Positions 6,191-55,120 of a DNA stretch of 64,000 bases are shown here, one piece after another. Each line of letters begins with the position of its first letter. Positions within the stretch are counted from its first letter, which is position 1. Both the position numbers and the translations under genes were made by a program. Source of the stretch: Gemmobacter caeni (GTDB lineage Bacteria; Pseudomonadota; Alphaproteobacteria; Rhodobacterales; Rhodobacteraceae); the NCBI RefSeq assembly GCF_003054195.1, contig NZ_QBKP01000018.1, positions 1-64,000 of the forward strand. The letters are read 5' to 3'. The notes under the pieces were generated by a model. It did not search any database, was not told where the DNA came from, and saw only the letters and a program-made list of their open reading frames with translations.

Positions 6191-8391
6191 GCCTTGCCCC
6201 CCTGCGCCTTGGACAGATGCGCCAGCACGGCGTCGCGCGGGCCATCGACGGCCATCTTGCCGTTCTGGAGGATCACCGTGCGTTCCGTCAGTTGCAGGAT
6301 CGGCACGCGGTGGGTGGCGATGATCGCAGTGCGCCCCTTCAGCCAGCCATGCAACCGGCTGACCAATGTCGCCTCAAGGGTCTGGTCGAGCGCGGCGGTC
6401 GGTTCGTCCAGCAACACGACTGACGGGTCTTGCAGCCAGAGTCGCGCCCAGCCGATGCTTTGCCGCTGCCCGACCGAAAGCCCCTCGCCCAGTTCGCGGA
6501 TCTCCAGATCAAGCCCGCGCGGATGGTTGCGCACGAAGGGGCCAAGACCCGCAAAATCCAGCGCGGCGAACAGCCGGTCATCATCGCGTTCCAGTTGGGT
6601 GAGGTTCAGGTTGTCGCGCAGGCTGCCCGCAAACAGTCGCACCTCCTGCCCTAGATAGCCGATCCCGCGGCGCAGGTCGCGCGGATGCACCTGCCCCAGA
6701 TCCACCCCGTCGATCAGGATGCGGCCGCGCGTCGGGTCAAACAGACCCGCCAGCAACCGCAGCAGCGTCGATTTGCCGGAACCATTGGCCCCCAGCACCG
6801 CGACGTGCTGGCCGGGCGGAATGGCAATGCCGGGGATATCGACCACGGCGCTGGATTTCTCATCATAGCGGAATTCCACGTTGCGCAGCTCGAACCCGCC
6901 TTTGATGCGGTCACGGCGCAAATAGCTGCGGCCCGCTTCCTCCTGCTGTTCGGCACTGGCGATGCTTTCCAGCCCGTCCAGCGCCGCGCGCACATTGGCC
7001 CAGCGCGCCAGCGTGGCAGAAATCTGCGACAGCGGGCCAAGCGTGCGCGAGGTCAGGATACCGATGGCGATGATCGTTCCCACCGTGAAATCGCCGGCAA
7101 AAACCTTGTAGGCCCCCACAACCACGGCGCTGACATAGGTCGCCTGCTGCACGCCCTGCGCCCAATAGGTCAGCAGCGACGACATATGCCGCTGTTCCGA
7201 AGATTTCAGCGCCGAAAGCGCAGTCAACTCGGCCCAGATGCGAGAAATCCGGTCCTGCGCGCGCTGGGTTGTGACCGTTTCATGTTCATAGACCGCTTCG
7301 TAAAGCAGCCGCGCCGCGCGGGTGGAGGCGCCCTGTGTCGCTTGTGTCAGCGCGATCATGCGCTTCTGGAAGAACAGGCCCGGCGCCACCATCAGGATGC
7401 CGCCGACCACCAGAATCCATACCAGATTGCCGCCGATCGAGGCGACAAGCAGGAAGAAAATGATCAGGAAGGGCAGATCCGCCAATGTGCCGATGGTGGT
7501 GGAGGTAAAGAATTCACGCACCGAAGAGAACTCGCGCATCGCCGAAAAGGTTTGCGACGGCGTGCGTTTTCCGGGGGCGGCGCGCATGTTCAGCAGCCGC
7601 TGCATCAGCCGTTCCTGCACCGACAGTTCGATCCGGCGGCCGGTGGTATCCATCAGGGTCGAGCGGGCGACCTTCAGCATGCCCTCAAGCACCACCGCCA
7701 GAAAGGCGCCCAGGGCCAGAACCCAGAGTGTGGGCTCCGACTGGTGCGGAATCACCCGGTCGTAGACCTGAAGCGAAAACAGCGCGACGGCGACCGCCAG
7801 CAGGTTCGCAACCAGCGAACCGGCCGCAACCTCTGCCAGCTGGCGGCGATACCCCCTGAACTCACCCCAGAACCAGTGCGGACGCGGCGCATCCTCGGCG
7901 TGGCGTTGTTCCAGCGCCGCCATCGAAGGCCGTGCACGCAGGAAAGTGCCACCGAACACCGCCGCAAATTCCTCCAGTGCGACTTCGGCACGCTTGTCCG
8001 GCAGGGTGGCGTCATAGATCGTCACGCTGTCATCGGATTGCGAAAGCACCAGAACAAGCTGCCCCGAGGACATTTGCGCAAGTGCGGGCCAGAAGGCAGG
8101 CTCTGGCGCAGCAGCACGATCAACCCGCGCGACAAGGCCCAGTTCGGTCAGCGCGCGACAAAGGTGATTGAGGTCAGGTGTCGCCCCGGCGTCGGCATGC
8201 CGTACCATCGCCTCGGCCAGATCGGCGGCGGAAAGCTCGGCGCCGGTCAGACCCAGATAGATCGTCGCCAGCCGCGCGCGGGCCAGGGCCTTTTCGCCCG
8301 GCTTCACGGCGGGATGTGCCGGGGCGGCGAGGCGCGGCTGCACCGCACTGCGATTGGCATTCAACTCGAATGCGACGACCCGATCGGTCAT
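6187..8391 (-). CDS. Type I secretion ABC exporter (permease-ATPase with degenerate peptidase domain)
   Basis: 734 residues. The N-terminal 150 resemble a C39-peptidase-like domain but I see no catalytic Cys at the start, as in LapB/HlyB-type exporters for uncleaved substrates. Six membrane helices follow (about 180-430), then the ATPase: Walker A GANGSGKST, signature LSVGQRQSIG (Val in place of the usual Gly), Walker B VVLLDEPTAALD, and H-loop ATHR. It exports proteins in one step from the cytoplasm; the neighbouring adhesin is the obvious substrate. ATGA overlaps on both sides show tight coupling. Confidence 0.9.
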   Translation of the reverse strand: MTDRVVAFELNANRSAVQPRLAAPAHPAVKPGEKALARARLATIYLGLTGAELSAADLAEAMVRHADAGATPDLNHLCRALTELGLVARVDRAAAPEPAFWPALAQMSSGQLVLVLSQSDDSVTIYDATLPDKRAEVALEEFAAVFGGTFLRARPSMAALEQRHAEDAPRPHWFWGEFRGYRRQLAEVAAGSLVANLLAVAVALFSLQVYDRVIPHQSEPTLWVLALGAFLAVVLEGMLKVARSTLMDTTGRRIELSVQERLMQRLLNMRAAPGKRTPSQTFSAMREFSSVREFFTSTTIGTLADLPFLIIFFLLVASIGGNLVWILVVGGILMVAPGLFFQKRMIALTQATQGASTRAARLLYEAVYEHETVTTQRAQDRISRIWAELTALSALKSSEQRHMSSLLTYWAQGVQQATYVSAVVVGAYKVFAGDFTVGTIIAIGILTSRTLGPLSQISATLARWANVRAALDGLESIASAEQQEEAGRSYLRRDRIKGGFELRNVEFRYDEKSSAVVDIPGIAIPPGQHVAVLGANGSGKSTLLRLLAGLFDPTRGRILIDGVDLGQVHPRDLRRGIGYLGQEVRLFAGSLRDNLNLTQLERDDDRLFAALDFAGLGPFVRNHPRGLDLEIRELGEGLSVGQRQSIGWARLWLQDPSVVLLDEPTAALDQTLEATLVSRLHGWLKGRTAIIATHRVPILQLTERTVILQNGKMAVDGPRDAVLAHLSKAQGGKA

Positions 8392-18364: not shown

Positions 18365-19249
18365 TTATCGTTCAAGTAGTTCGGCCAGATGCCCGCCGCT
18401 GCGATCCAGCGCGACCCGCGCCTCTGCGGGCGACAGGCCCTGCGCAACCAGGATCGCGGGCTTCACCGCGCCTTCAGTCTGTGACAATGCGGCGTCAGCC
18501 TCTGCCCGGCTGACCCGTGCGACCGCCGCGACGATGCGCGCCGCACGGTCGAGCAGCTTGGCATTGTCGGCGATCACATTGACCATATAGCCGTCGTGCA
18601 CATGGCCAAGGCGCAGCCCGATCAGCACCGACACCATGTTCAGCGCCGCTTTCTGCGCCGTTCCTGCCCCCATCCGGGTGGAACCGGAAACAACCTCGGC
18701 CCCGGTTTCCAGCAGGACCGGCAGATCCGCCCGCGCCAGCAGCGCAGAACCTGCGACATTGGCAAAGCCCGCCACCGTCACCCCGCGCGCCTGCGCGGCC
18801 TCGGCCAGCGTCAGCGCGTAGGGCGTCGTGCCCGACGCCGACAGGACCAGCAGCACATCGCCCGCGCCAAGGCGCGAGGCCTCAAGATCCGCCAATGCAA
18901 GTGCCGGATCATCCTCGACCGCGCCCGTCATATGCAGCAGCGCAGCGGCCCCCCCGGCAAACATCATCGGCGTGCGATCCGGCGACAGGCCGAATGTTCC
19001 CGCAAGCTCCAGGCAATCCGCAAGCGCCATCAACCCGGAGCTGCCCGCCCCGCCATAGCCCAGGCGCCCGCCCCGACGCAGCGATTCAGCCCCGGCGTCA
19101 GCCACACGTTCCAGCGCGGCAAGCGCCGGACGCACCGCCGCAAGTGCCGCGACCTGCGCATCCAGAAGCAGGGCAAGCACCTCATCCGCCGGGCGCGCGT
19201 GCAGCCCTTCGGATTGTGTATGACGTGCTTCGGTGCTGCGTATTGCCAT
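18365..19249 (-). CDS. murQ: N-acetylmuramic acid 6-phosphate etherase (MurQ-like)
   Basis: 294 residues with one SIS sugar-isomerase fold. MurQ splits MurNAc-6-phosphate into GlcNAc-6-phosphate and D-lactate. Signs: TEARHTQSEGLHARPADEVL at the start, GGRLGYGGAGSSG, a Glu in ELAGTF where E. coli MurQ has the ECPPTF acid, AVEDD where the second Glu lies, ASGTTPYAL, and the very diagnostic STRMGAGTAQKAALNM. It is divergent in the ECPPTF segment. ATG 19249 has GGGGG six bases upstream. It is the first gene of the minus-strand amino-sugar operon and faces the kinase gene. Confidence 0.85.
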   Translation of the reverse strand: MAIRSTEARHTQSEGLHARPADEVLALLLDAQVAALAAVRPALAALERVADAGAESLRRGGRLGYGGAGSSGLMALADCLELAGTFGLSPDRTPMMFAGGAAALLHMTGAVEDDPALALADLEASRLGAGDVLLVLSASGTTPYALTLAEAAQARGVTVAGFANVAGSALLARADLPVLLETGAEVVSGSTRMGAGTAQKAALNMVSVLIGLRLGHVHDGYMVNVIADNAKLLDRAARIVAAVARVSRAEADAALSQTEGAVKPAILVAQGLSPAEARVALDRSGGHLAELLER

Positions 19250-19272
19250 GTGATTCCCCCTTGCCTCTGGAT

Positions 19273-19291
19273 AATGCCAAACCAATACCAA
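19273..19291 (-). promoter_or_regulatory. Operator copy facing murQ
   Basis: Read on the minus strand: TTGGTATTGGTTTGGCATT. It is a direct repeat of TTGGTATT-like octamers with an 11-base period, about one helical turn. It agrees with the opposite copy at 17 of 19 positions and lies 24 bases before the murQ start codon. The obvious candidate binder is the GntR-family regulator encoded at 20234. Confidence 0.75.
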
Positions 19292-19361
19292 TTGTAAAGA
19301 ACAATCTTCAATCTTACAGAAATCCCTTGTTTTTCAGAGATGTGAACTTTCCCCTTTTCAT

Positions 19362-19380
19362 TTGGTATTGTTTTGGTATT
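19362..19380 (+). promoter_or_regulatory. Operator copy facing the kinase gene
   Basis: TTGGTATTGTTTTGGTATT, a direct repeat of TTGGTATT spaced 11 bases apart. It sits 23 bases before the kinase start codon, nearly the same distance as the other copy from murQ. The symmetry suggests both operons are repressed by the same protein. Confidence 0.78.
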
Positions 19381-19403
19381 TTATATGTAGCGTGAGGAGC
19401 AGC

Positions 19404-20234
19404 ATGGTCGTCTTTCTGGGAATCGATGGTGGCGGCACCGGATGTCGCGCGGCTGTAGCCGATAGCGCGGGCACCATTCTGGGGCTGGGCGCGGCCGGGC
19501 CTGCGAATGTGAACACCGACGTCACCGGGACCTTTGCCAATATCATGACGGCCACCAGACAGGCCCTGTCCGGCCACACCATTGCGGAAACCGATCTTGT
19601 GGCCGTGCTGGGGCTGGCGGGCGCGAATATCAGCGCGGCAGTGGATCACCTGCACCAGATGCTGCCCTTCGCCCGCACCCGCATCGTCACAGATGCCGTG
19701 ACCGCAGCCCGCGGCGCTTTGGGTGGGGCGGATGGGATCGTCGCGGCCATGGGCACCGGATCGGTTTTTGCCGTCCAGCGTGCGGGCGTTATGCGGCAGT
19801 TTGGCGGACGGGGTTTTGTTCTGGGCGATCAGGGCAGCGGCGCCGTTCTGGGTCGCACCCTGCTGGCCGAAGCCCTGCGCGCCGATGACGGCTTTGCCCC
19901 GATGACACCACTTCTGGCCGAAGTCCTCGGCGAATTTGGCGGGATCGAGGGAATCATAACTTTCGGCTTTCGCGCCAGACCCGCAGAATTTGCCGCCCTC
20001 GCCCCCCGCATCGTGCAAAGCGACGATCCGGCAGCCCGGCGCATTTTCGAAGACGCGGTGAAAGAAGTGCGCGGCATCGTTGAAACGCTTCAGGCGGGGG
20101 ACAGGCTGCCGCTTGTATTTCTGGGTGGCCTCGGACCGTCTTATTCCAGACACCTCGGCGAACTGTGGGAAATCCGCGCACCACTCGGCTCGGGTCTGGA
20201 CGGGGCGGTGCGACTGGCGCTGGAGGAGGCGTGA
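19404..20234 (+). CDS. BadF/BadG-family amino-sugar kinase
   Basis: 276 residues, ASKHA fold. The phosphate-1 motif is FLGIDGGGTGCRAAVAD; further conserved parts are VLGLAGANISAAV, VTDAVTAARGALGGADGIVAAMGTGS and QFGGRGFVLGDQGSG. Family members phosphorylate GlcNAc, glucosamine or, in Clostridium MurK, both GlcNAc and MurNAc. With MurQ and NagA nearby, a GlcNAc/MurNAc kinase is the natural reading. ATG 19404 has GAGGAG five bases upstream. Its stop shares one base with the regulator's start. Confidence 0.85.
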   Translation: MVVFLGIDGGGTGCRAAVADSAGTILGLGAAGPANVNTDVTGTFANIMTATRQALSGHTIAETDLVAVLGLAGANISAAVDHLHQMLPFARTRIVTDAVTAARGALGGADGIVAAMGTGSVFAVQRAGVMRQFGGRGFVLGDQGSGAVLGRTLLAEALRADDGFAPMTPLLAEVLGEFGGIEGIITFGFRARPAEFAALAPRIVQSDDPAARRIFEDAVKEVRGIVETLQAGDRLPLVFLGGLGPSYSRHLGELWEIRAPLGSGLDGAVRLALEEA

Positions 20235-32062: not shown

Positions 32063-32898
32063 GCTGACAGAACCGCCTGCCTGGTCGCTTCATCAACCTC
32101 GGGGCGATGGCCAAACCAGCGTTCGAATCCCGGCGCAGCCTGATGGAGCAACATGCCAAGACCGTCGACCACCGTGGCTCCCGCCGCCTCTGCCTCAATC
32201 AGGAACTGGGTTTTCAGCGGTGTATAGACCAGATCCGTCGCAAGGGCGCCCGGTTCCATCGCATCAAGCGGCACCCGAAACTCCGGCTTGCCTGTCATGC
32301 CCAGCGAGGTGGTATTAACCACAGTCGCCGCACCTTCGAGCATGTTTCCAGCCTGAATCCAGTCATGCACCATCACCTTCGCCCCGAAATCGCTGCGAAA
32401 GACTTCGGCGCGTGGCCGGGTACGGTTTGCGATACGGATTTCGGGCGCGCCAACTTCGATCAAGGCAGCGACAACAGCCCGTGCAGCACCCCCCGCCCCA
32501 AAGACCACAGCCGGCCCTGCGGCGGGGTTCCACTGCGGAGCGTTCTGCCGCAAATTCGCTATGAACCCCGCGCCATCGGTATTGTCGGCGTGAATCCGAC
32601 CATCTTTGCGGAAGATCAGCGTATTGGCCGCACCGATCAACGCCGCGCGATCTGTCACGATATCGGCAAGGCCGAGAATGGTCTCTTTATGCGGAATAGT
32701 GACGTTCAGCCCGACAAAGCCCATGCGGGGCAGCAGGCGCAGCGCCTCTGGCAGATCGGCCTGCGCAATGTCCATCGGGATATAATGGCCCTTGATGCCA
32801 TAGCGGCGCAGCCAGTAGCCATGCAGCGCGGGCGAACGGCTGTGCGCGATCGGAGAGCCGATCACGCCGGCCAGCGGAAGGCGCGGATGGTCTGTCAT
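32059..32898 (-). CDS. aroE: Shikimate dehydrogenase AroE
   Basis: 279 residues. Shikimate-binding [17 protein letters not shown] and [13 protein letters not shown] (catalytic Lys about 66 and later Asp about 101 in ADNTDGAGF), then the NADP Rossmann motif [16 protein letters not shown] and IANRTRPRA. It reduces 3-dehydroshikimate in the aromatic amino acid pathway. The start overlaps the maf stop by four bases. Confidence 0.96.
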
Positions 32899-33494
32899 GT
32901 CTCGATGAACCCCCGAAGTTCCAGATAGGCCAGCAGCGGCAGAAGCGGCAGCCCCAGAACTGCAAAGTAATCACCCCGGATGTCGGTGAAAAGCCGCACG
33001 CCCTCTTCTTCCAGCTTATATCCCCCGGCAGAGTGGCGCAGGCTGTCCCAGTTGCGGGAAATGTAGCCATCCAGCCAAGCGTCGGAAAACTCCCGCATGG
33101 TCAGATCCACCCGGCCGATATGGCGCCAGACCGGCTTTGCCTGATCGTAAAGAACCAGGGCTGACAGCAGCCGATGGGTCTTGCCACGCATCGCAAGCAG
33201 TTGAACCCGCGCTTCATCGGGCGAGGCGGGCTTGCCCCAGGCACGACGATCAAACTCCAGCACCTGATCACAGCCAAGAACCAGCGCATCGGGATGCCGT
33301 TCAGCGATCTTGCGCGCCTTCATCTCGGCGAGAGCATCGGCGATATCCTGCGGATGTGCGCCCTCAGCCTCCAGCGCGGCGCGGATGGTTTCCTCATCAA
33401 TGCGGGCGGGCAGCGCACTCGCCGCGACCCCTGCGTTATGCAGAAGCGCGAGGCGCGTTGGGGAAGCGGAGGCAAGCAGGATCTGGCGCGGCAT
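32895..33494 (-). CDS. maf: Maf-family nucleotide pyrophosphatase
   Basis: 199 residues: [19 protein letters not shown] (the Maf opening), [23 protein letters not shown] and a C-terminal [18 protein letters not shown]. Maf proteins hydrolyse non-canonical or modified nucleotides. ATG 33494 is chosen by homology; no good Shine-Dalgarno precedes it and the frame is open further upstream to 33551. It is the first leftward gene from the presumed origin. Confidence 0.9.
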
Positions 33495-33897
33495 CTGGGG
33501 GCGTATCTGTGGAAAATCTGGGTTTGTTCCCAAGGTCGGTCTTGGGGTCATTCAGGCGTCTGGCAAGGATTGGCGACGGCAATCCCGGTTTGTCAAGCAA
33601 AGCCGGAATCTTTTCCACCTGTGGGAAGGACATCCCGGCGGCTTGGGACAGCGGAGTAACACACAATGCCGGTATGGCTGACCGCTGTTTGCGAGAAAAG
33701 CTCATCTATCTGAAAATAATGGAGAAAGTTCCAAATTTTCTGGTTTCTTCCATAGGTTATGCGAAGTTATCCACCATCGGGCGTATGTGGAAAAGCCTGG
33801 GGGTTGCGCCGCAAATCCTGTTATCCACTGCCCCAATCACATCATTCCTTTTTCTCTTTCTTTTATTAATAAGAGGTAAGCACAGCAGGAGGCAGAC
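33495..33897. other. oriC: Candidate chromosomal replication origin (oriC)
   Basis: 403 bp with no gene. DnaA-box-like sites (consensus TTATCCACA): TGTGGAAAA at 33508-33516, TTTTCCACC at 33611-33619, TGTGGGAA at 33620-33627, TTATCCACC at 33767-33775, TGTGGAAAA at 33786-33794 and TTATCCACT at 33821-33829. An AT-rich, T-rich tract follows at about 33841-33880 and could be the unwinding element. Genes to the left (maf, aroE, coaE, dnaQ) run leftward and those to the right (hemJ to parB) run rightward, so both arms are co-directional with forks leaving here. In Caulobacter oriC lies beside hemE with maf and aroE nearby, and parAB is close. Confidence 0.82.
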
Positions 33898-34347
33898 ATG
33901 GGCGATTTTCTGGCGGGAGCCTATCCTTGGCTGAAGTTCCTGCATGTGATCTCGGTGATCAGCTGGATGGCAGGTCTGTTCTACCTGCCTCGGCTCTACG
34001 TCTATCACGTTGAAAAAGTGTCAAAAGGTTCGGAAACCGATGCTCTTTTTCAGCTTATGGAGCGGCGTCTGCTGCGGGCGATCATGAATCCTGCGATGAT
34101 CGCGACCTGGCTTTTCGGACTCGCCCTTGTACTCACGCCCGGCATTGTGGACTGGTCGATGATCTGGCCCTGGACAAAGGCCGCGAGCGTGCTTGGCATG
34201 ACATGGTTTCACATGTGGCTTGCCGCCCGCCGCAAGGATTTCGTCGCTGGGATGAATGCAAAGACCGGGCGGACCTACCGGATGATGAACGAAGTTCCGA
34301 CGCTTCTGATGATCGTGATCGTGGCCTCGGTCATCGTGAAGTTCTGA
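33898..34347 (+). CDS. hemJ: Protoporphyrinogen oxidase HemJ
   Basis: 149 residues, four membrane helices. Opens FLAGAYPWLKFLHVISVISWMAGLFYLPRLYVYH with the conserved His and WMAGLFYLPRLFVYH-like motif; later TWFHMWLAARRKDF and TGRTYRMMNEVPTLLMIVIV. HemJ oxidises protoporphyrinogen IX in haem synthesis in bacteria without HemG or HemY. AGGAGG six bases before ATG 33898 supports the start. It is the first rightward gene from the presumed origin; hemE is not beside it. Confidence 0.93.
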   Translation: MGDFLAGAYPWLKFLHVISVISWMAGLFYLPRLYVYHVEKVSKGSETDALFQLMERRLLRAIMNPAMIATWLFGLALVLTPGIVDWSMIWPWTKAASVLGMTWFHMWLAARRKDFVAGMNAKTGRTYRMMNEVPTLLMIVIVASVIVKF

Positions 34348-34352
34348 TTTTG

Positions 34353-34451
34353 TTGACTCAGGGCTGTCGCAGGCTTATGTGGGCCGCTGAGCAGGGCCGT
34401 CCGGCCTGATGCGTTTCCCGATGACAGAACGATCCGGGCCCCCATTGGGGC
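34353..34451 (+). promoter_or_regulatory. Candidate rho promoter and leader
   Basis: TTGACT at 34353-34358 and TATGTG at 34376-34381 are 17 bases apart, a fair sigma-70-type pair. Downstream, GCCCC-CATT-GGGGC at 34438-34451 is followed by TTTC and could be a weak attenuator stem. Rho genes are often self-regulated in the leader, but nothing here proves it. Confidence 0.4.
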
Positions 34452-34473
34452 TTTCGTGGATGGACCATTTCCC

Positions 34474-35745
34474 ATGACCCTTGAACGGCTGAACCTTTCC
34501 GATCTGAAAGCCAAGACCCCGGCAGAACTGCTGGCGATGGCCGAGGAATGGGAGATCGAGAACGCGCCTTCCATGCGGAAGGGCGAGATGATGTTCTCGA
34601 TCCTGAAAGAGCATGCCGAAGAAGGCTGGGAGATTGGCGGCGACGGCGTTCTGGAAGTGTTGCAGGATGGCTTTGGCTTTTTGCGCAGCCCCGAAGCCAA
34701 CTATCTGCCTGGTCCCGATGACATCTATGTCAGCCCCGAGATGATCCGCCAGTTCAGCCTGCGCACCGGGGACACCATCGAGGGTGTCATTCAGGGGCCG
34801 CGGGACAATGAGCGCTATTTCAGCCTCGTGAAAGCGGAGCGAATCAACTTTGACGATCCCGAGAAGGCCAAGCACAAGGTCCATTTCGACAACCTGACGC
34901 CGCTTTACCCCGATGAGCGGCTGAAGATGGAAATTGAAGACCCGACCATCAAGGACCGTTCGGCCCGTATCATTGACCTGGTGGCCCCTATCGGGAAGGG
35001 CCAGCGGGCGCTGATCGTGGCACCGCCGCGCACGGGTAAAACCGTGCTTTTGCAGAATATTGCGCATTCCATCGAGGTTAACCACCCGGAATGCTATCTG
35101 ATCGTTCTGCTGATCGACGAACGTCCTGAAGAAGTGACGGACATGCAGCGCAGCGTCAAGGGCGAGGTCGTTTCCTCGACCTTCGACGAACCTGCCACCC
35201 GGCACGTTGCGGTGGCGGAAATGGTGATCGAGAAGGCGAAACGCCTGGTCGAGCACAAGCGTGATGTCGTTATCCTGCTGGACTCGATTACGCGTCTGGG
35301 CCGGGCTTTCAACACCGTGGTACCGTCGAGCGGCAAGGTGTTGACCGGCGGTGTTGATGCCAATGCTCTGCAGAGGCCGAAGCGGTTCTTTGGGGCGGCG
35401 CGAAACATCGAGGAAGGCGGCTCGTTGACCATCATCGCAACGGCGCTGATCGACACGGGCAGCCGGATGGACGAAGTGATCTTTGAAGAATTCAAGGGCA
35501 CAGGTAACAGCGAGATCGTGCTGGACCGTAAAGTCGCGGACAAGCGGGTATTCCCGGCGATGGATATTCTCAAATCCGGTACCCGGAAGGAGGATCTTCT
35601 GGTCGAGAAGGCGGATCTGCAAAAGACCTATGTGCTGCGCCGTATCCTGAACCCGATGGGTACCACGGATGCCATCGAGTTCCTGATCGGGAAGCTGAAG
35701 CAGACCAAGAGCAATTCCGAATTCTTCGATTCGATGAATACCTGA
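34474..35745 (+). CDS. rho: Transcription termination factor Rho
   Basis: 423 residues. N-terminal helix region ([39 protein letters not shown]), RNA-binding cold-shock fold ([36 protein letters not shown]), Walker [13 protein letters not shown] (about 181), [31 protein letters not shown] with Walker B and the Q/R loops. It winds RNA into its ring and stops transcription. I use ATG 34474 by homology; GTG 34456 is possible. Rho is needed more here because several convergent gene pairs have no room for hairpin terminators. Confidence 0.96.
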
Positions 35746-37063: not shown

Positions 37064-38938
37064 GTGTTCCACGTGAAACATTTCGATGTCATTGTCATTG
37101 GCGCAGGTCATGCTGGCTGTGAGGCTGCGGCAGCAGCTGCGCGGATGGGTGCGCGCACGGCATTGGTAACGTTGCGAATGGCAGATATCGGCACCATGTC
37201 CTGTAACCCGGCCATTGGTGGGCTTGGGAAGGGGCATATCGTGCGCGAAATCGACGCGCTGGATGGTGTGATGGGCCGTGTTGCCGACCGTGCAGGAATT
37301 CAGTTTCGTCTGCTGAACAGGCGGAAAGGCCCGGCAGTGCAGGGGCCTCGGGCGCAGGCGGATCGCAAGATCTATCGGGCCGAAATGTTTGCAGCGCTTT
37401 CCAATTATGAAAATCTTGAGATTGTTGAGGGAGAAGTGGCCGATATCCTTGCCAGGGATGGCAAGGTTCATGGTGTCATGCTCGCAGATCAAAGCGAGAT
37501 ACTTGCGCGACAGGTGATCCTGACGGCGGGAACCTTCCTCAATGGCGTGATTCACATTGGTGATGTGAAGCGCAGTGCTGGCCGGATGGGGGACAGGCCT
37601 TCGATACTGCTGGCGGATCGCCTTGCAGAGTTTGATCTGCCGCGCGGTCGGCTGAAAACCGGAACTCCACCGCGACTGGATGGACGGAGCATCGACTGGT
37701 CGATTCTGGACAGACAGGAGGGCGATGCCGATCCGGTTCTGTTTTCCTTTGCCCACCGGAAACCTTTTGTCCGACAGATCTCTTGCGGAATTACTCACAC
37801 TAACGAGCAGACGCATGACATCATTCGGAAAAATCTGGATCGGTCAGCGATGTACGGTGGGCATATCGAAGGAGTAGGGCCGCGATACTGCCCCTCGATC
37901 GAGGATAAGGTTGTCCGTTTTGCTGACAAGACCAGCCATCAGGTGTTTCTTGAACCTGAGGGCCTGGATGACGATACGGTCTATCCGAATGGGATTTCCA
38001 GCTCCTTGCCGATTGAAGTGCAAGAAGCTTATGTGCGGTCCATCCGCGGGCTGGAGAACACCCGTATTCTTCAGCCGGCCTATGCTATCGAATACGATTT
38101 CTTCGATCCTCGCAGCCTGAAGCAGACGCTGGAAACGCGTGCGCTTCAGGGGCTTTACTTTGCCGGGCAGATCAATGGCACGACGGGATATGAAGAAGCT
38201 GCGGCGCAGGGGCTGGTTGCAGGCCTGAACGCTGCGGCGACGGCGCTGGGGCGCGATGCCATCATCTTCTCGCGCACCGATAGCTATATCGGCGTAATGA
38301 TCGATGATCTCCTGACCTTCGGCGTCACCGAGCCATATCGCATGTTCACTTCCCGAGCAGAGTTTCGGTTGTTGCTTCGTGCAGATAATGCGGATCAGAG
38401 GTTGACAACGAAGGGCCGCGAGGCCGGTTGTATCAGCGATGAACGCTGGGCATTGTTTGAAACGAAGTCGAGGCAGCTTGCCCAGGGCCGTGCTGCGCTG
38501 TCTGCGTGTCAGGTGGCACCGAAAGAGGCCGTTGCCATGGGGATCAATGTGAGCCTGGAAGGGGGGCGGCGCTCGGCGTTGCAGCTTTTGACTTTCCCTG
38601 ATGTTGGGCCGAATGATCTGCGTGGCCTGGCCGAAGATTTTGACAGCCTGCCGGATGATATCAAGATGCAGCTGCGCATTGATGCGCTCTACGATGCATT
38701 TTCGGATCGGCAGAAGACGGATGTGATGGCAATTCGGCAGGATGAGGGAAATATGATCCCACCCTCGCTGGACTACCGCGCCATTTCAGGGCTTTCGAAT
38801 GAGCTGGCAGACAAGCTCAGCCGGATACAGCCGGCCAATATCGGTCAGGCAAGCCGGATCGAAGGGATGACGCCTGCGGCTTTGGTTCTGATCATGGCGC
38901 GGATTTCAAAAGAGAAACCTGAACGGATTGCCTCGTGA
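37064..38938 (+). CDS. mnmG: tRNA modification enzyme MnmG (GidA)
   Basis: 624 residues. FAD-binding [17 protein letters not shown] near the N-terminus, [32 protein letters not shown], and Cys in GISSSLP-type and SCNPAIGG segments, all MnmG. Starts at GTG 37064; the first residues FHVKH are encoded by a parS site (37065-37080), so the start of this protein is fixed by the centromere sequence. GTGA links it to rsmG. Works with MnmE on the tRNA wobble uridine. Confidence 0.97.
37065..37080. other. parS centromere site 1 (one mismatch), over the mnmG start
   Basis: TGTTCCACGTGAAACA differs from the parS consensus TGTTTCACGTGAAACA at one position. It begins one base into the GTG start codon of mnmG, so it encodes the FHVKH residues. 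ParB bound here could also affect mnmG expression. Confidence 0.85.
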
Positions 38939-39555
38939 CGCTTCCTGATGGTATCGGAGTAGATGTTTCACGTGAAACATCTGATGCGCTGACGCGGTAT
39001 GTCAAGCTGCTGGAAAAGTGGAACAAGGCGATCAACCTCGTTTCAAAAGGAACGGTTGCGGATATCTGGACAAGGCATATTGCCGATTCCGCCCAGCTTT
39101 TCAGAATGCTGCCTGCCCAGGCTTCAAGTTGGGTGGATCTCGGCTCTGGTGGGGGTCTTCCGGGGCTGGTTCTGGCGATTCTGAGTCGCGATCTGGAGCG
39201 GGAGTTGAATTTTGTTCTGGTTGAATCTGACCAGCGAAAGGCAACGTTTCTGCGGCAGGTTGCGATGGAGCTTGCGCTTCCTGTAAAGGTTTATGCTTGT
39301 CGCGTGGAAAATCTGCCGGTGGGACTTCGCGCTGATGTCGTTTCTGCGCGCGCGCTGGCGCCTTTGCAGGATCTTTGCACCATGGCTTCACCGCTCCTCG
39401 CACCAGACGGGATATGTATTTTTCCGAAGGGCGAGACCGCCGGGCAGGAGATTGAGGCTGCAATGCAGCATTGGCACTTTGATCTTGAACGCTTCCCGAG
39501 TATCACAAGTGCGAACTCTGAAATCCTGAAACTTTCGAAGATCCGTCATGTCTGA
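38935..39555 (+). CDS. rsmG: 16S rRNA (guanine-N7) methyltransferase RsmG
   Basis: 206 residues. SAM-binding [46 protein letters not shown] and FPKGE, all RsmG hallmarks. It methylates G527 of 16S rRNA; loss gives low-level streptomycin resistance. GTG 38935 overlaps the mnmG stop. The segment DVSRET (about 10-15) is the translation of a perfect parS site at 38964. The 3' end overlaps parA by eight bases. Confidence 0.95.
38964..38979. other. parS centromere site 2 (perfect), inside rsmG
   Basis: TGTTTCACGTGAAACA matches the consensus exactly. It encodes part of DVSRET near the RsmG N-terminus, a place tolerant of change. Confidence 0.95.
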
Positions 39556-40363
39556 TCCCAGCCGACCGAAGCTTCCCCGTATCGTGGCGGTCACCAATCA
39601 GAAGGGTGGCGTTGGAAAGACGACAACCGCCATCAATCTGGCGGCCGGGCTGGTCGAACTGGGTGCCCGGGTGCTGGTGGTTGATCTTGATCCGCAGGGG
39701 AATGCGTCCACCGGCCTCGGGATTGAGGCACAAGACCGGGCAGTTACCACTTACGACGTGCTGCTGGATGATGTGCCGATCTCGGACGCGGTTCAGACCA
39801 CAATCATCGAGAACCTGTTGATTTGTCCGGCCAACGCAGATCTTGCCTCGGCCGATATCGAGCTTGTAGCGAACGAGAAGCGCAGTTTTCTGTTGCACGA
39901 TGCCTTGCGCGCCATCGATATCGACAATCTGAAGCTGGATTATGTCCTGCTGGACTGCCCACCCTCGCTGAGCTTGCTGACCGTGAACGCCCTTTGCGCC
40001 GCACATTCGGTGCTTATTCCTTTGCAGAGCGAGTTTTTCGCGTTGGAGGGCTTGTCCCAGCTCATGCTGACCATCCGCCAGGTCCGGGAGGCAGCAAATC
40101 CTGCCTTGCGGATCGAAGGGGTGGTTCTGACCATGCACGATGCGCGGAACAACCTTTCCCAGCAGGTTGAGGCTGATGCCCGTGCGACGCTGGGTGATCT
40201 GGTTTTCAAGACCATCGTGCCGCGGAATGTCCGCGTCAGCGAGGCGCCTTCTTATGCAATGCCGGTGCTGACTTATGATTCTGCCTCCAAGGGAAGCGAA
40301 GCTTATCGCGCCCTGGCTCTGGAACTGGCGGTGCGGCACGGATTAGCGCAGGAAAGGATCTGA
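39548..40363 (+). CDS. parA: Chromosome-partitioning ATPase ParA
   Basis: 271 residues. Deviant Walker A NQKGGVGKTTTAINLAAGL at about residues 19-37, VLVVDLDPQGNASTGLG (A') and VLLDCPPSLSLLTVNAL (Walker B), as in chromosomal ParA/Soj. ParA forms ATP-dependent gradients on the nucleoid that pull ParB-parS complexes apart. It lies directly before parB, with two bases between, and 6 kb from the presumed origin. Confidence 0.97.
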   Translation: MSDPSRPKLPRIVAVTNQKGGVGKTTTAINLAAGLVELGARVLVVDLDPQGNASTGLGIEAQDRAVTTYDVLLDDVPISDAVQTTIIENLLICPANADLASADIELVANEKRSFLLHDALRAIDIDNLKLDYVLLDCPPSLSLLTVNALCAAHSVLIPLQSEFFALEGLSQLMLTIRQVREAANPALRIEGVVLTMHDARNNLSQQVEADARATLGDLVFKTIVPRNVRVSEAPSYAMPVLTYDSASKGSEAYRALALELAVRHGLAQERI

Positions 40364-40365
40364 CG

Positions 40366-41265
40366 ATGGAAAAGAAAGTTGAACGCCGTGGCCTTGGCCG
40401 TGGTCTTTCCGCGTTGATGGCCGATGTGAGCGTGAGCAACCCTCAGGAGGTTCCGGGAACCGCCCGGAAGCCCGATGTCCTGCCCATCGAGGCCATAAAG
40501 CCGAACCCGGATCAGCCCCGTCGCAGTTTTACGGATGGTGATCTGGAGGATCTTGCAGCGTCGATCCGTCAGAAGGGTGTATTGCAGCCGCTGATCGTAA
40601 GGCCGGTGGAAGCGGGATATGAGATTGTGGCGGGTGAGCGGCGCTGGCGGGCGGCCCAACTTGCAAACCTGCATCAGCTTCCTGTTCTGATCCGGGATTT
40701 CGATGACACGGAAGTGCTTGAGATCGCGATTATCGAGAACATTCAGCGCGAGGACCTGAACGCGATCGAAGAGGCTCTGGCTTTCCGGCAGCTGATGGAC
40801 CGTTTTGGCCATACCCAGGAAAAGCTGGCAGAGGCGCTTTCCAAGAGCCGCAGCTATATCGCGAACCTGCTGCGGCTTTTGAACCTGCCCGAAGATGTGC
40901 AGCGGCATGTCCGTGACGGGCGGCTGAGCGCCGGTCATGCACGGGCACTGGTAACCCATTCCGATGCCTCCGCCATTGCGCAAGAGGTCATCGCGAAGGG
41001 CCTGTCTGTGCGGGAGACCGAAGAGCTGGTTCGGAAAGTTGGGGCGCCCGCTCGCACCCGGCGATCCGCTCAGGCCGGGGCGTCGGAGAAAGACGCGGAT
41101 ACAAGAGCCCTTGAACTCGATCTGTCAGCGAATCTTGGAATGGGCGTGACCATCGCGCATGGGGTCGATGGTGAGGGCACATTGTCGATTCGCTATCAGT
41201 CGCTCGACGAGCTGGATTTGCTGTGCCAAACGCTTTCTGTCATGCGTCGGGACGTGTCCATATGA
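40366..41265 (+). CDS. parB: Chromosome-partitioning protein ParB
   Basis: 299 residues. Opens with the ParA-contacting basic segment (RRGLGRGLSALMADV), then the CTP-binding N-domain (IKPNPDQPRRSFTDGDLEDLAASIRQKGVLQPLIVRP, GERRWRAAQLA), the helix-turn-helix QEKLAEALSKSRSYIANLLRLLNLPEDVQ and a C-terminal dimer part. ParB clamps load at parS and slide. It ends in a 26-base convergent overlap with the DUF454 gene. Confidence 0.97.
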   Translation: MEKKVERRGLGRGLSALMADVSVSNPQEVPGTARKPDVLPIEAIKPNPDQPRRSFTDGDLEDLAASIRQKGVLQPLIVRPVEAGYEIVAGERRWRAAQLANLHQLPVLIRDFDDTEVLEIAIIENIQREDLNAIEEALAFRQLMDRFGHTQEKLAEALSKSRSYIANLLRLLNLPEDVQRHVRDGRLSAGHARALVTHSDASAIAQEVIAKGLSVRETEELVRKVGAPARTRRSAQAGASEKDADTRALELDLSANLGMGVTIAHGVDGEGTLSIRYQSLDELDLLCQTLSVMRRDVSI

Positions 41266-41593: not shown

Positions 41594-42805
41594 CTAAAGT
41601 GCCCCTGCCAGCTGCTCGATCACCGCATTCAGAAGCGGGCGACCCTTTCTTGTGACGCGCAAAGTGTCTGCTTGCAGGTCGATCATGCCCAGCTCACTCA
41701 GCTCGGCCAGCTTGCCGGCACGGATGGATGCGTGTGCCATAGCCTCCAGACGAGAAAGTGAGATACCGCTACCGAGCCGGAGGCCCATCAGGAGGTATTC
41801 GAGGGCGCAATCCATCTCTCCCAGCGGCTCCAGTTCCAGATTGCCTCGATCTTTGGCTGTTTCACACCATTGGACGGGCATCGGCTGCATCGTCGTGGCA
41901 TAGCGAGTATCGCCAAGCGTCAGGCGACCATGCGCCCCGGGCCCGACGCCCGCATAGTCACCTGCCGACCAGTAAATCATGTTGTGCCGGGATTCAGTCC
42001 CAATGCGGGCGTGATTGGAAACCTCATAGGCAGGCAGCCCGGCTGCTTCCATCATGTCTTGTGTCACGGCGAAGAAATCTGCGCCCTGGTTCTCATCGGG
42101 AAGGCCCAACAGCTGTCCGCGTGCAAAGCGCTCGCCAAAGACAGTGCCTTGTTCAATTGTCAGCTGGTATAGCGACATATGGGAGGCGCCAAGTGCGATA
42201 GCCCGGGCAAGCTCCTTCTGCCAGCTTTCAAGGCTTTGGTTCTGGCGGGCATAGATAAGGTCGAAGGAAACGCGGTCAAACGTACCCTGCGCGATGTCAA
42301 GTGCGCGGAGCCCCTCTGCGACGGTATGCTTGCGGCCAAGCATTCGCAGGTCGGTGTCGTCCAGAGCCTGCATGCCGAGAGAAACCCGGTTCACGCCAGC
42401 CGTGCGATAGCCCTGAAAATTGGCCGCATCCACAGAGCCGGGGTTTGCCTCCAGCGTAATCTCGATGTCGTTCGCGAAGTCCCAGTGATCTGCGGCGCGT
42501 TCAAGGATCGCTGCCACGGTGTCCGGTCGCATCAGGGAAGGGGTCCCACCGCCAAAATAGATCGAATTGAGTACGCGCCGCCCTGTCATTGTGGCGACGC
42601 GATCAATCTCCTGTTCATAGGCGGCTGCCCAGGCACTTTGGTCGATCTTCCCGGCGACATGGCTGTTGAAATCGCAATAGGGGCATTTCGACTGGCAGAA
42701 GGGCCAGTGAAGATACAGCCCGAAGCCTCCGGACCGCCAGTCTTCCTTCGCAATTGGCGCGGTATCTGCGGGAGCCCGGGGCAGGGGATGTTTCACGTGA
42801 AACAC
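41594..42805 (-). CDS. hemW: Radical SAM haem-related protein HemW
   Basis: 403 residues. Radical SAM cluster motif in LYLHWPFCQSKCPYCDFNSHV (CxxxCxxC), then YFGGGTPSLM, ITLEANPGSVDA, GVNRVSLGMQALDD. HemW proteins look like coproporphyrinogen oxidase HemN but act as haem chaperones. The first residues FHVKH come from a perfect parS site at 42789. The start lies inside the 3' end of rdgB (13-base overlap). Confidence 0.93.
   Translation of the reverse strand: MFHVKHPLPRAPADTAPIAKEDWRSGGFGLYLHWPFCQSKCPYCDFNSHVAGKIDQSAWAAAYEQEIDRVATMTGRRVLNSIYFGGGTPSLMRPDTVAAILERAADHWDFANDIEITLEANPGSVDAANFQGYRTAGVNRVSLGMQALDDTDLRMLGRKHTVAEGLRALDIAQGTFDRVSFDLIYARQNQSLESWQKELARAIALGASHMSLYQLTIEQGTVFGERFARGQLLGLPDENQGADFFAVTQDMMEAAGLPAYEVSNHARIGTESRHNMIYWSAGDYAGVGPGAHGRLTLGDTRYATTMQPMPVQWCETAKDRGNLELEPLGEMDCALEYLLMGLRLGSGISLSRLEAMAHASIRAGKLAELSELGMIDLQADTLRVTRKGRPLLNAVIEQLAGAL
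42789..42804. other. parS centromere site 3 (perfect), at rdgB/hemW overlap
   Basis: TGTTTCACGTGAAACA exact match. On the minus strand it covers the hemW start codon region (FHVKH) and the last codons of rdgB, so one 16-base site is used by two reading frames and by ParB. Confidence 0.95.
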
Positions 42806-45866: not shown

Positions 45867-45882
45867 TGTTTCACGTGAAACA
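45867..45882. other. parS centromere site 4 (perfect), between grpE and mutS
   Basis: TGTTTCACGTGAAACA exact match, the only copy here in a true intergenic space. It lies between the grpE stop and its terminator hairpin. Confidence 0.95.
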
Positions 45883-54800: not shown

Positions 54801-55120
54801 AGGCGCCGCGCTTCGGCCAGTGTTTCACGTGAAACGGGCGCGATGGCGCCAAGGTTCAGCAGCGCCTCCCGCAGGTCAAGGTCGGGCTTCATCGCCCATT
54901 CGCCCAGCCGCTGAAACAGCCGGTTCTGCATCTCTGACGCGGCGGCCTTGGTATAGGTCAGGCACAGGATGCGGCCGGGCTCGACCCCGGAAAGCAGCAG
55001 CCGCGCCACTCGGTCAGTCAGGACGCGGGTCTTGCCCGATCCCGCATTGGCGGAAAGCCAGGTCGAATATCCGGGATCTGCGGCCTGCACCTGCCGTTCA
55101 CTGGCGGCGTTGCGAGTCAT
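51800..55120 (-). CDS. addA: Double-strand break repair helicase-nuclease AddA
   Basis: 1106 residues. SF1A helicase: Walker A SANAGSGKTRVLTDRVARLLL, ILCLTYTKAAASEM, ILVDEAQDTSPDQWKVI, VGDQKQSIYSFQGAD, VMTVHGSKGLEAPIVIL. The RecB-type nuclease at the C-terminus has GAIDRLIVLPSRVIAVDFKSN (Asp and Lys). AddAB resects double-strand ends to a Chi-like site for RecA. VSRET about residues 95-99 is the translation of a parS-like site (54821). ATGA couples it to addB. Confidence 0.96.
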   Translation of the reverse strand: MTRNAASERQVQAADPGYSTWLSANAGSGKTRVLTDRVARLLLSGVEPGRILCLTYTKAAASEMQNRLFQRLGEWAMKPDLDLREALLNLGAIAPVSRETLAEARRLFARAIETPGGLRIQTIHSFCASLLRRFPLEAGVSPQFTEMDERAAKLLREDIVADLASGSKSDVIAALAAIYTGEDFSALTAEIARHSDALSPPLDAAGCLTLFGLPPGFTAIDLLDEVFLGGEAGLLSDTADILMTGSTKDQQAGAKLAALRGARQDLTMLAALEEVLLFSGNVKEESKRFTAKGDQLATKATQPKLAALSPALHALMLRVEAARPRRLALAAADRTARLHSFAAAFLPAYAHRKALRGALDFDDLISRAMGLLTDPTVAQWVLFRLDGGIDHILVDEAQDTSPDQWKVIELLAQEFTAGTGAREIERTIFVVGDQKQSIYSFQGADVTAFAEMREAFAGRLKAIDAPFNALELEYSFRSSQAILRLVDQTFPPDLHPDLGGPSHHIAFRDAMPGRVEIWPPVEPADTPEDGDWANPVDLVTGEHHNAILARQIADRIREILGNGTMIPDATGARPVHAGDFLILVRRRSPLFAEIIRACKAAKLPIAGADRLHLGGEIAVKDLTALLAFLATPEDDLALAELLRSPLCGWSEQQLYALAQPRKGYLWEALRAQTETFPDLLAMLHDLRDQADFLRPFDLIERALTRHDGRRRLLARLGEEAEDGIDELLSQALAYERNDVPSLTGFLTWLQTDDIEVKRQMDSGGRKIRVMTVHGSKGLEAPIVILPDTADMTANDRDELFRMHDTAVWRTPADASPADISRIRAERARRSRAEEMRLLYVAMTRAQSWLIVAAAGKLASQSGKADSDKPPAWYDLIRTGAEKSGAVPSVKGRLVHEFGVWPKPQDNLTTEAPPETPQPLPAWALQPAAPALRPAQMLNPSNLGGAKVLAGDYEGENPDAKARGTLLHGLFEHLPGLTAERQTRLAEILIPDPVLRAELLFEARSVIDRPEFQQIFAPSTLREVSVVAEFQGQPLAGAIDRLIVLPSRVIAVDFKSNAIVPEAPQEIPEGLIRQMRAYRAALTQIYPGRQIETALLWTRKARMMLVD
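54821..54836. other. parS-like site 5 (one mismatch), inside addA
   Basis: TGTTTCACGTGAAACG matches the consensus at 15 of 16 positions. It encodes VSRET in AddA and lies 21 kb from the presumed origin, the farthest of the five copies. Confidence 0.8.

Follow-up and report, generated by a model that had tools for sequence, protein, structure and literature searches.

Our picture of alphaproteobacterial chromosomal origins is anchored by the experimentally identified Cori of Caulobacter crescentus, a stretch of 404 bp located between hemE and COG1806/ppsR (PMC1914354). In the Rhodobacteraceae, an oriC beside maf is stated to be conserved, on the basis of DoriC predictions (PMC4793288), and 101 origins of the family have been placed with Ori-Finder and curated by GC-disparity minimum, local GC minimum, and parAB proximity (PMC6699656). 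At the level of mechanism, the basal unwinding system (BUS) is described as a DnaA-box, a spacer, and a series of DnaA-trios, where a DnaA filament forms on the triplets of one strand and deviant trios are allowed for (PMC8287927). All four papers are cited here from excerpts.

The window analyzed here covers the opening 64 kb of contig C18 (89,419 bases), part of a 5.1-Mb draft assembly in 80 contigs. Within it, a gap of 403 bp (GC 0.50) opens between the start of maf at 33494 on the minus strand and the start of hemJ at 33898 on the plus strand. This gap, positions 33495 to 33897, is very probably the chromosomal oriC of a Gemmobacter-type member of the Rhodobacteraceae, and the location proposed by an initial annotation is thereby well supported, by a cluster of DnaA boxes, parS sites, a conserved gene order, and a shared sequence module. 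Boxes were scored against the consensus TTATCCACA and counted at one mismatch or fewer, and weak sites at two. The gap, its flanks, and its principal elements are:

32895 to 33494, minus strand: maf, left flank (NCBIfam Maf above the subfamily cut-off)
33495 to 33897, no strand assigned: maf-hemJ intergenic region, very probably oriC, 403 bp (DnaA-box cluster and conserved position)
33508 to 33516, minus strand: maf-proximal DnaA box TTTTCCACA, one mismatch
33611 to 33619, plus strand: weak DnaA-box-like site TTTTCCACC, two mismatches
33695 to 33764, no strand assigned: central AT-rich stretch of variable sequence, GC 0.33-0.38
33767 to 33775, plus strand: DnaA box TTATCCACC, one mismatch
33786 to 33794, minus strand: DnaA box TTTTCCACA, one mismatch
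33814 to 33853, plus strand: conserved 40-bp core module comprising a degenerate box, a DnaA box, a GC spacer, a three-base repeat, and the start of a T-rich tract
33821 to 33829, plus strand: DnaA box TTATCCACT, part of the core module, one mismatch; the BUS arrangement starts from here
33830 to 33880, plus strand: GC spacer (GCCCC), trio-like repeat, and pyrimidine/AT-rich tract, a probable unwinding element judged by its composition and order
33898 to 34347, plus strand: hemJ, right flank (NCBIfam TIGR00701, 137.0 bits, slightly below the cut-off of 138.05)

The genes diverge on both sides of the gap, as had been claimed from the sequence alone. The minus-strand arm on the left consists of maf, aroE, coaE, and dnaQ, an arm that the initial annotation had also recognized, with secB on the plus strand beyond it; the plus-strand arm on the right consists of hemJ, rho, mnmE, mnmG, rsmG, parA, and parB. 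Maf, AroE, CoaE, DnaQ, Rho, and the ParB domain exceed their NCBIfam cut-offs, and mnmE, mnmG, rsmG, and secB are putative names. Caulobacter also carries maf-aroE-coaE-dnaQ on one side of its origin.

Four boxes with at most one mismatch occupy the gap (33508 minus, 33767 plus, 33786 minus, and 33821 plus), and a two-mismatch site at 33611 (plus) is the fifth. Six box-like sites had been counted; five are indeed within the gap and the sixth, the two-mismatch site at 33436 (plus), falls just outside, inside maf. Dinucleotide-shuffled copies of the gap contain a mean of 0.08 boxes at this threshold and none of 5000 reaches four. The entire 64 kb holds nine, and no other 400-bp stretch has four, such that the gap carries, beyond chance, the DnaA-box cluster typical of a bacterial chromosomal oriC. 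Individual elements recur among relatives: a box about 400 bp before hemJ, comparable to that at 33508, is found again in many of the 88 loci compared below, the distance of the 33786 box to its neighbors is repeated in several relatives, and the TCCACCTGTG of the 33611 site is retained in all six rows used of alignment A1.

The AT-rich tract noted from the start is equally apparent, at 33695-33734 (GC 0.33), 33735-33774 (GC 0.38), and 33855-33894 (GC 0.38). Across 84 gaps of the family, mean GC drops to 0.27-0.31 at 21-60 bp before hemJ, the AT-rich unwinding region expected of an origin. A second AT-rich valley, which lies 160-200 bp before hemJ in the same gaps and separates the left boxes from the core module, is common in composition and variable in sequence.

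The nearby parAB genes and parS copies that had been reported beside the gap were also recovered, with parS counted at one mismatch or fewer:

37065 to 37080, no strand assigned: parS, one mismatch
38964 to 38979, no strand assigned: parS
39548 to 41265, plus strand: parA-parB (ParB domain over the cut-off; ParA family matches all below their cut-offs)
42789 to 42804, no strand assigned: parS
45867 to 45882, no strand assigned: parS
54821 to 54836, no strand assigned: parS, one mismatch

These five parS sites are the only ones found in the 5.1-Mb assembly and all lie in the window, 3-21 kb to the right of the gap; shuffled windows contain none, and the reversed pattern occurs nowhere in the genome. 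In each of nine other genomes, the parS copies detected group into one cluster. By-eye comparison in G002, G013, G023, G061, and G062, where hemJ was mapped, places 13 of 13 parS sites within approximately 21 kb of hemJ, one of them (in G002) to its left. An origin-proximal parABS system is therefore a feature of this region. Three of the sites coincide with coding sequence: that at 37065 overlaps the start of mnmG (MFHVKH), that at 38964 lies in rsmG (VSRET), and that at 42789 is at the start of a hemW-like gene (MFHVKH).

Elsewhere, contig C1 of G000 (locus L132, about 6740-6920, near 186.8 kb) contains two copies of TTATCCAC 64 bp apart and one AATCCACAG. On one side of them is an unnamed ORF and on the other an ORF read as exonuclease III-like. 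The cluster could be a DnaA-regulated promoter or a titration site. The TTATCCAC pair was set aside as a second origin candidate because C1 has no parS.

GC skew was sampled in 20-kb stretches on the large contigs of four relatives, G002 (3.38 Mb), G013 (3.56 Mb), G061 (3.43 Mb), and G062 (4.68 Mb). In the orientation of the window, it is positive to the right of the gap in 12/13, 9/11, 8/10, and 9/10 stretches, respectively, and negative to the left in 9/9, 7/8, 7/10, and 8/10; the exceptions in G061 include two positive stretches, at 11 and 50 kb to the left. The sign thus switches around the gap in all four, at a resolution of only about 100 kb. Within the contig of the window, the cumulative minimum falls at approximately 19-20 kb, which is 14 kb to the left of the gap. 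In the congener G002, it is near 1.876 Mb, about 18 kb left of the gap at 1.894 Mb; the two minima fall in syntenic genes. From the sampled signs and the offset minima, it follows that the skew switches around the gap and not exactly at it, and GC skew was rejected as a pinpointing test for being both too coarse and offset. The stretch at the minimum, 19200-19420 of the window, is AT-rich and intergenic, with a gene order common to G002.

Could the true origin reside at that minimum, near 19.2-19.4 kb, leaving the maf-hemJ gap to serve as a DnaA-regulated promoter? Beyond the cumulative minimum itself and its syntenic place in G002, the 60-mers with the lowest GC content in the window begin at 19.29-19.33 kb, with those at 33.70-33.71 kb, inside the gap, close behind. 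However, a solitary one-mismatch box (19266) is found there, the region from 1.8723 to 1.8825 Mb that surrounds the G002 minimum has no such box, and it is maf-hemJ that holds both the cluster of boxes and the core module; the skew shift may follow the strand bias of the intervening genes. The AT-rich 19.3-kb site was rejected as an origin for its lack of boxes, and we consider this placement highly improbable.

Placement of the origin in the maf-hemJ gap is reinforced by the persistence of the arrangement among relatives. The HemJ alignment A2 matched at least 586 related loci, of which the best 80 were kept. Their labels are Rhodobacteraceae, Rhodobacterales, or genera that belong there, the exceptions being L056, labeled "uncultured Rhizobium", and L086 and L096, both labeled "Alphaproteobacteria bacterium". 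One of them, L098, ends 207 bp upstream of hemJ, leaving 79 readable loci, and in all 79 of these, drawn from the best 80 of at least 586, a divergent maf stands beside hemJ across an estimated gap of 379-478 bp. Together with the window and eight congener loci, two of which duplicate named ones, these make up 88 loci. The gap contains at least as many boxes of one mismatch or fewer as any stretch of equal length in its own locus in 87 of the 88, and strictly more in 73; the gap of L092 has no such box. Among ten congeners, the DNA of the gap is matched in eight, and HemJ with maf across a gap is found in nine. HemJ was searched for and not found in the whole genome of the tenth, G008, and the family member L139 (G019) offers a very weak HemJ match (E 3.4e-4), from which it appears that hemJ itself may be lost or replaced in places. 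The maf|hemJ arrangement is a property of the family and not of one species.

The location of the origin is not new, because predicted Rhodobacteraceae origins beside maf are already in print (PMC4793288, PMC6699656, both in excerpt). A close precedent is the oriC of Ketogulonicigenium vulgare Hbe602, of the same family and with the same neighbor, maf; it differs in being a prediction only, hemJ is absent from the paper, which was the single match of a literature search on hemJ, maf, and Rhodobacteraceae origins, and neither a core module nor a history of gene loss figures in the excerpted account (PMC4793288). The origin described here is thus ordinary for its family and known at the level of prediction, and what is added is the shared module and its altered repeat.

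The core module emerged from a motif search of width 40 that assumed one site per gap, such that a site in every gap is by construction. It covered 84 gaps, that is, the 88 loci minus the duplicates or near-duplicates L022, L024, L056, and L106, with the near-identical pair L105/L113 kept. The resulting motif, AttCCcgtTaTCCACaGgCCCTACAaCAtCATCatctTTT, carries 33.6 bits, in comparison with 16.8-17.2 bits in three block-shuffled runs made with fewer restarts, and starts 69-114 bp before the start of hemJ. Column frequencies give its order as a degenerate box, a DnaA box, a GC spacer, C-T-A followed by C-A-T/A repeats, and a T-rich tract. When aligned by gene starts alone, independently of the module, the gaps show little column conservation, because of indels.

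A model trained on 72 sites, congeners excluded, scores 38.8 bits at 33814, and the next non-overlapping site on either strand of the 64 kb scores 2.3 bits. Under leave-one-out testing, the best match of a locus is inside the gap in 83 of 84 cases, L095 being the failure. A degenerate pattern of the congener module, with at most one mismatch, has a single match in the assembly, at 33814, and one each in seven of ten congeners, while its reversed form occurs nowhere; of the remaining three, G005 and G007 have diverged forms and G008 is the genome in which no HemJ match was found. The module seems to be a short, well-conserved unwinding element whose triplet is unlike the textbook version in related groups.

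A start 69-114 bp before hemJ in the 84 gaps is also what would be expected were the module a promoter or leader of hemJ instead of an element of the origin. Against this stand the DnaA boxes contained in the module, the lack of any Rfam match at E<=1 in 32800-34600, which indicates no RNA family in the gap, and the observation developed below that, in other Alphaproteobacteria, the gene after a similar module is hemE, not hemJ, in most gaps beside ppsR, so that the module follows position rather than gene. The chance that it belongs to hemJ expression alone is, in our estimation, slight in the extreme.

How does an origin module situated between maf and hemJ relate to the Caulobacter origin between hemE and ppsR? 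The two resemble each other in length (404 bp for Cori; PMC1914354, in excerpt) and in possessing DnaA boxes, and the ppsR-side gaps of other members of the class contain a core module similar to that of the maf-hemJ gap. They differ in that both hemE and ppsR are gone from the flanks of the maf-hemJ gap, and in their CtrA sites, since the gap has one TTAA and no TTAA-N7-TTAA. Across the 84 gaps, full CtrA-type sites (TTAA-N7-TTAA) occur in seven, against 0.8 after base shuffling, and half sites are rarer than in base shuffles, with 8 against 17; an AT-rich tract could yield full sites by composition. CcrM sites (GANTC) are not enriched in these 84 gaps (123 against 129.8 base-shuffled).

The earlier statement that hemE appears to have moved is true as far as it goes, with the hemE of this genome residing on contig C6 (named by NCBIfam), but incomplete, as the ppsR flank is missing too. 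A search for ppsR/COG1806 found none in this genome, which is one of 93 such genomes among the 100 sampled from the family; the gene exceeds the cut-off in the other 7 and in 79 of 115 genomes of the class. Within 1.5-kb flanks of 30 class ppsR loci, a hemE match occurs in 28 and a maf match in 26. In 48 further class loci held out from motif work, the first of the three genes hemE, hemJ, and rho on the far side of the gap is hemE in 39, hemJ in one, and rho in three, with none found in five. The seven family genomes with ppsR are divided between hemE|ppsR (L229, L230, and L232) and hemJ|ppsR (L231, L233, L291, and L292). hemJ itself need not have moved, because it directly follows hemE in the class members L146 and L166 and because hemJ|ppsR gaps exist in those four family genomes.

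A second motif search, independent of the family set, was conducted on 33 ppsR-side gaps (28 from the class and five from the family). It returned ATCCCCG.taTcCACagGccc.a..aa.cca..acc..tT at 24.9 bits, in comparison with 14.8-15.2 bits in four block-shuffled runs, with 31 of the 33 sites located 51-136 bp before hemE or hemJ. With the family box model alone as anchor, 23 of the 33 sites are at 45-140 bp before hemE or hemJ. The 40-bp family model scores below zero in seven of these 33 gaps. Given that a similar module was found independently in the hemE|ppsR gaps of other Alphaproteobacteria, the origin probably stayed in place while hemE left and ppsR was lost. Judged from gene orders, the simplest history probably runs from ppsR|ori|hemE-hemJ-rho, through the departure of hemE, to the loss of ppsR, with the origin unmoved.

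The arrangement of the module invites comparison with the BUS, with which the maf-hemJ gaps share a box, a GC-rich spacer, and a three-base repeat in matching order. The rule applied here comprised a DnaA-box with at most two mismatches, a spacer of 0-16, and at least three triplets with the published middle base. In the window, it leads from the box at 33821, 77 bp before hemJ, across a 15-bp spacer to nine NTN triplets; of the 84 family gaps, 61 conform to it on the expected strand and 25 on the opposite one, as do about 10 after shuffling. In contrast to the published system, the repeat here is mostly of CAT/CAA type, with C at every third base, and outside the core family, the published middle-base rule does not favor the expected strand over the other, with 9, 10, and 3.1 (expected, other, shuffled) in the 33 ppsR-side gaps. 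Among the titles listed by a literature search, none concerned alphaproteobacterial DnaA-trios.

A periodicity of three is evident when the sequence is anchored at boxes. In the 18 bases after the boxes of the family, identity at lag 3 is 0.57 versus 0.31 shuffled, with lags 1, 2, 4, and 5 below expectation. L145 was left out when this first lag test was applied to the 33 ppsR-side gaps. With box-only anchoring, lag-3 identity is 0.52 versus 0.30 in the family and 0.40 versus 0.31 in the ppsR-side gaps, and lags 1, 2, and 5 are below expectation in both sets.

A rule requiring C at every third base, devised after viewing the 84 and 33 gaps, finds runs of three or more in 25 of the 33 ppsR-side gaps on the expected strand and 13 on the other, and runs of four or more in 17 versus 5 (1.2 shuffled); in the 84 family gaps, the corresponding counts are 73 and 46, and 57 versus 13. 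Narrower versions, with the third base A, or A/T, were fixed before the hold-out outcome. The hold-out began as 50 loci, namely, the 48 class ppsR places without a locus and two family loci. G161 also offered a second copy, G091 two fragments, and G132 a weak match, all of which were left out; dropping the five without hemE, hemJ, or rho across the gap gave a final 45. The family model favors the expected strand in 36 of these. The published rule yields 22 versus 23 gaps at three or more triplets and 11 versus 10 at four or more (shuffled 8.8 and 3.5), C at every third base 30 versus 18 and 18 versus 7 (shuffled 5.1 and 1.4), and C first with A/T third 19 versus 5 and 12 versus 0 (shuffled 1.0 and 0.1). 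By these hold-out counts, some of the members have a strand-preferring three-base register that lacks the published middle base.

The repeat might instead be a by-product of a pyrimidine-rich unwinding tract, with no three-base register that matters. In an alignment-free scan, lag 4 (52/84) does as well as lag 3 (53/84; block-shuffled mean 23, largest 29), both peaking near the repeat, 27 of the 45 hold-out gaps lack a run of four C-every-third-base on the expected strand, and in 18 of the 45 a run of three is present on the opposite strand. The box-anchored lag-3 identities in both the family and the ppsR-side gaps and the strand preference of the hold-out for runs of four or more nevertheless favor a register, and we regard the by-product explanation as rather unlikely. 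As for the register, it may be, and we offer this as a tentative generalization about which we retain considerable doubt, that alphaproteobacterial origins share one core unwinding module with trios that obey a rule other than the published one, of the form 3'-G-N-W-5', in which, on the DnaA-bound strand, 3'-G in first position and A/T in third position return every three bases and the middle base is free. If true, the DnaA of this class would recognize single strands in another way than Bacillus DnaA does, and oriC could be located throughout the class from the module alone, drafts included.

With the published BUS work and the layout of the gap as guides, initiation at this site can be envisaged as follows. 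DnaA would bind the scattered boxes and a double box at approximately 33812-33829, and from the double box would extend across the GC spacer onto the three-base repeat of one strand. The T-rich tract beside hemJ would then be opened and the helicase loaded there, with forks leaving both ways, while ParB at the rightward parS sites would help move the new origin. The site itself would descend from the ancestral alphaproteobacterial origin, hemE having left one side and ppsR having been lost from the other, to give the present hemJ and maf borders. Taken as a whole, the explanation that the gap is oriC, that DnaA opens the module, that ParB moves the origin, and that the site descends from the ancestral alphaproteobacterial origin is one we hold, as a reading of sequence, with strong confidence.

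For a genome known only as 80 contigs, this analysis fixes the likely replication origin and yields a sequence signature by which the maf-hemJ gap was picked out in 83 of the 84 loci tested. It suggests that the origin kept its place as the classical border gene on either side disappeared. Should the altered repeat prove real, variation of a supposedly common origin-opening code within a large bacterial class would become testable.
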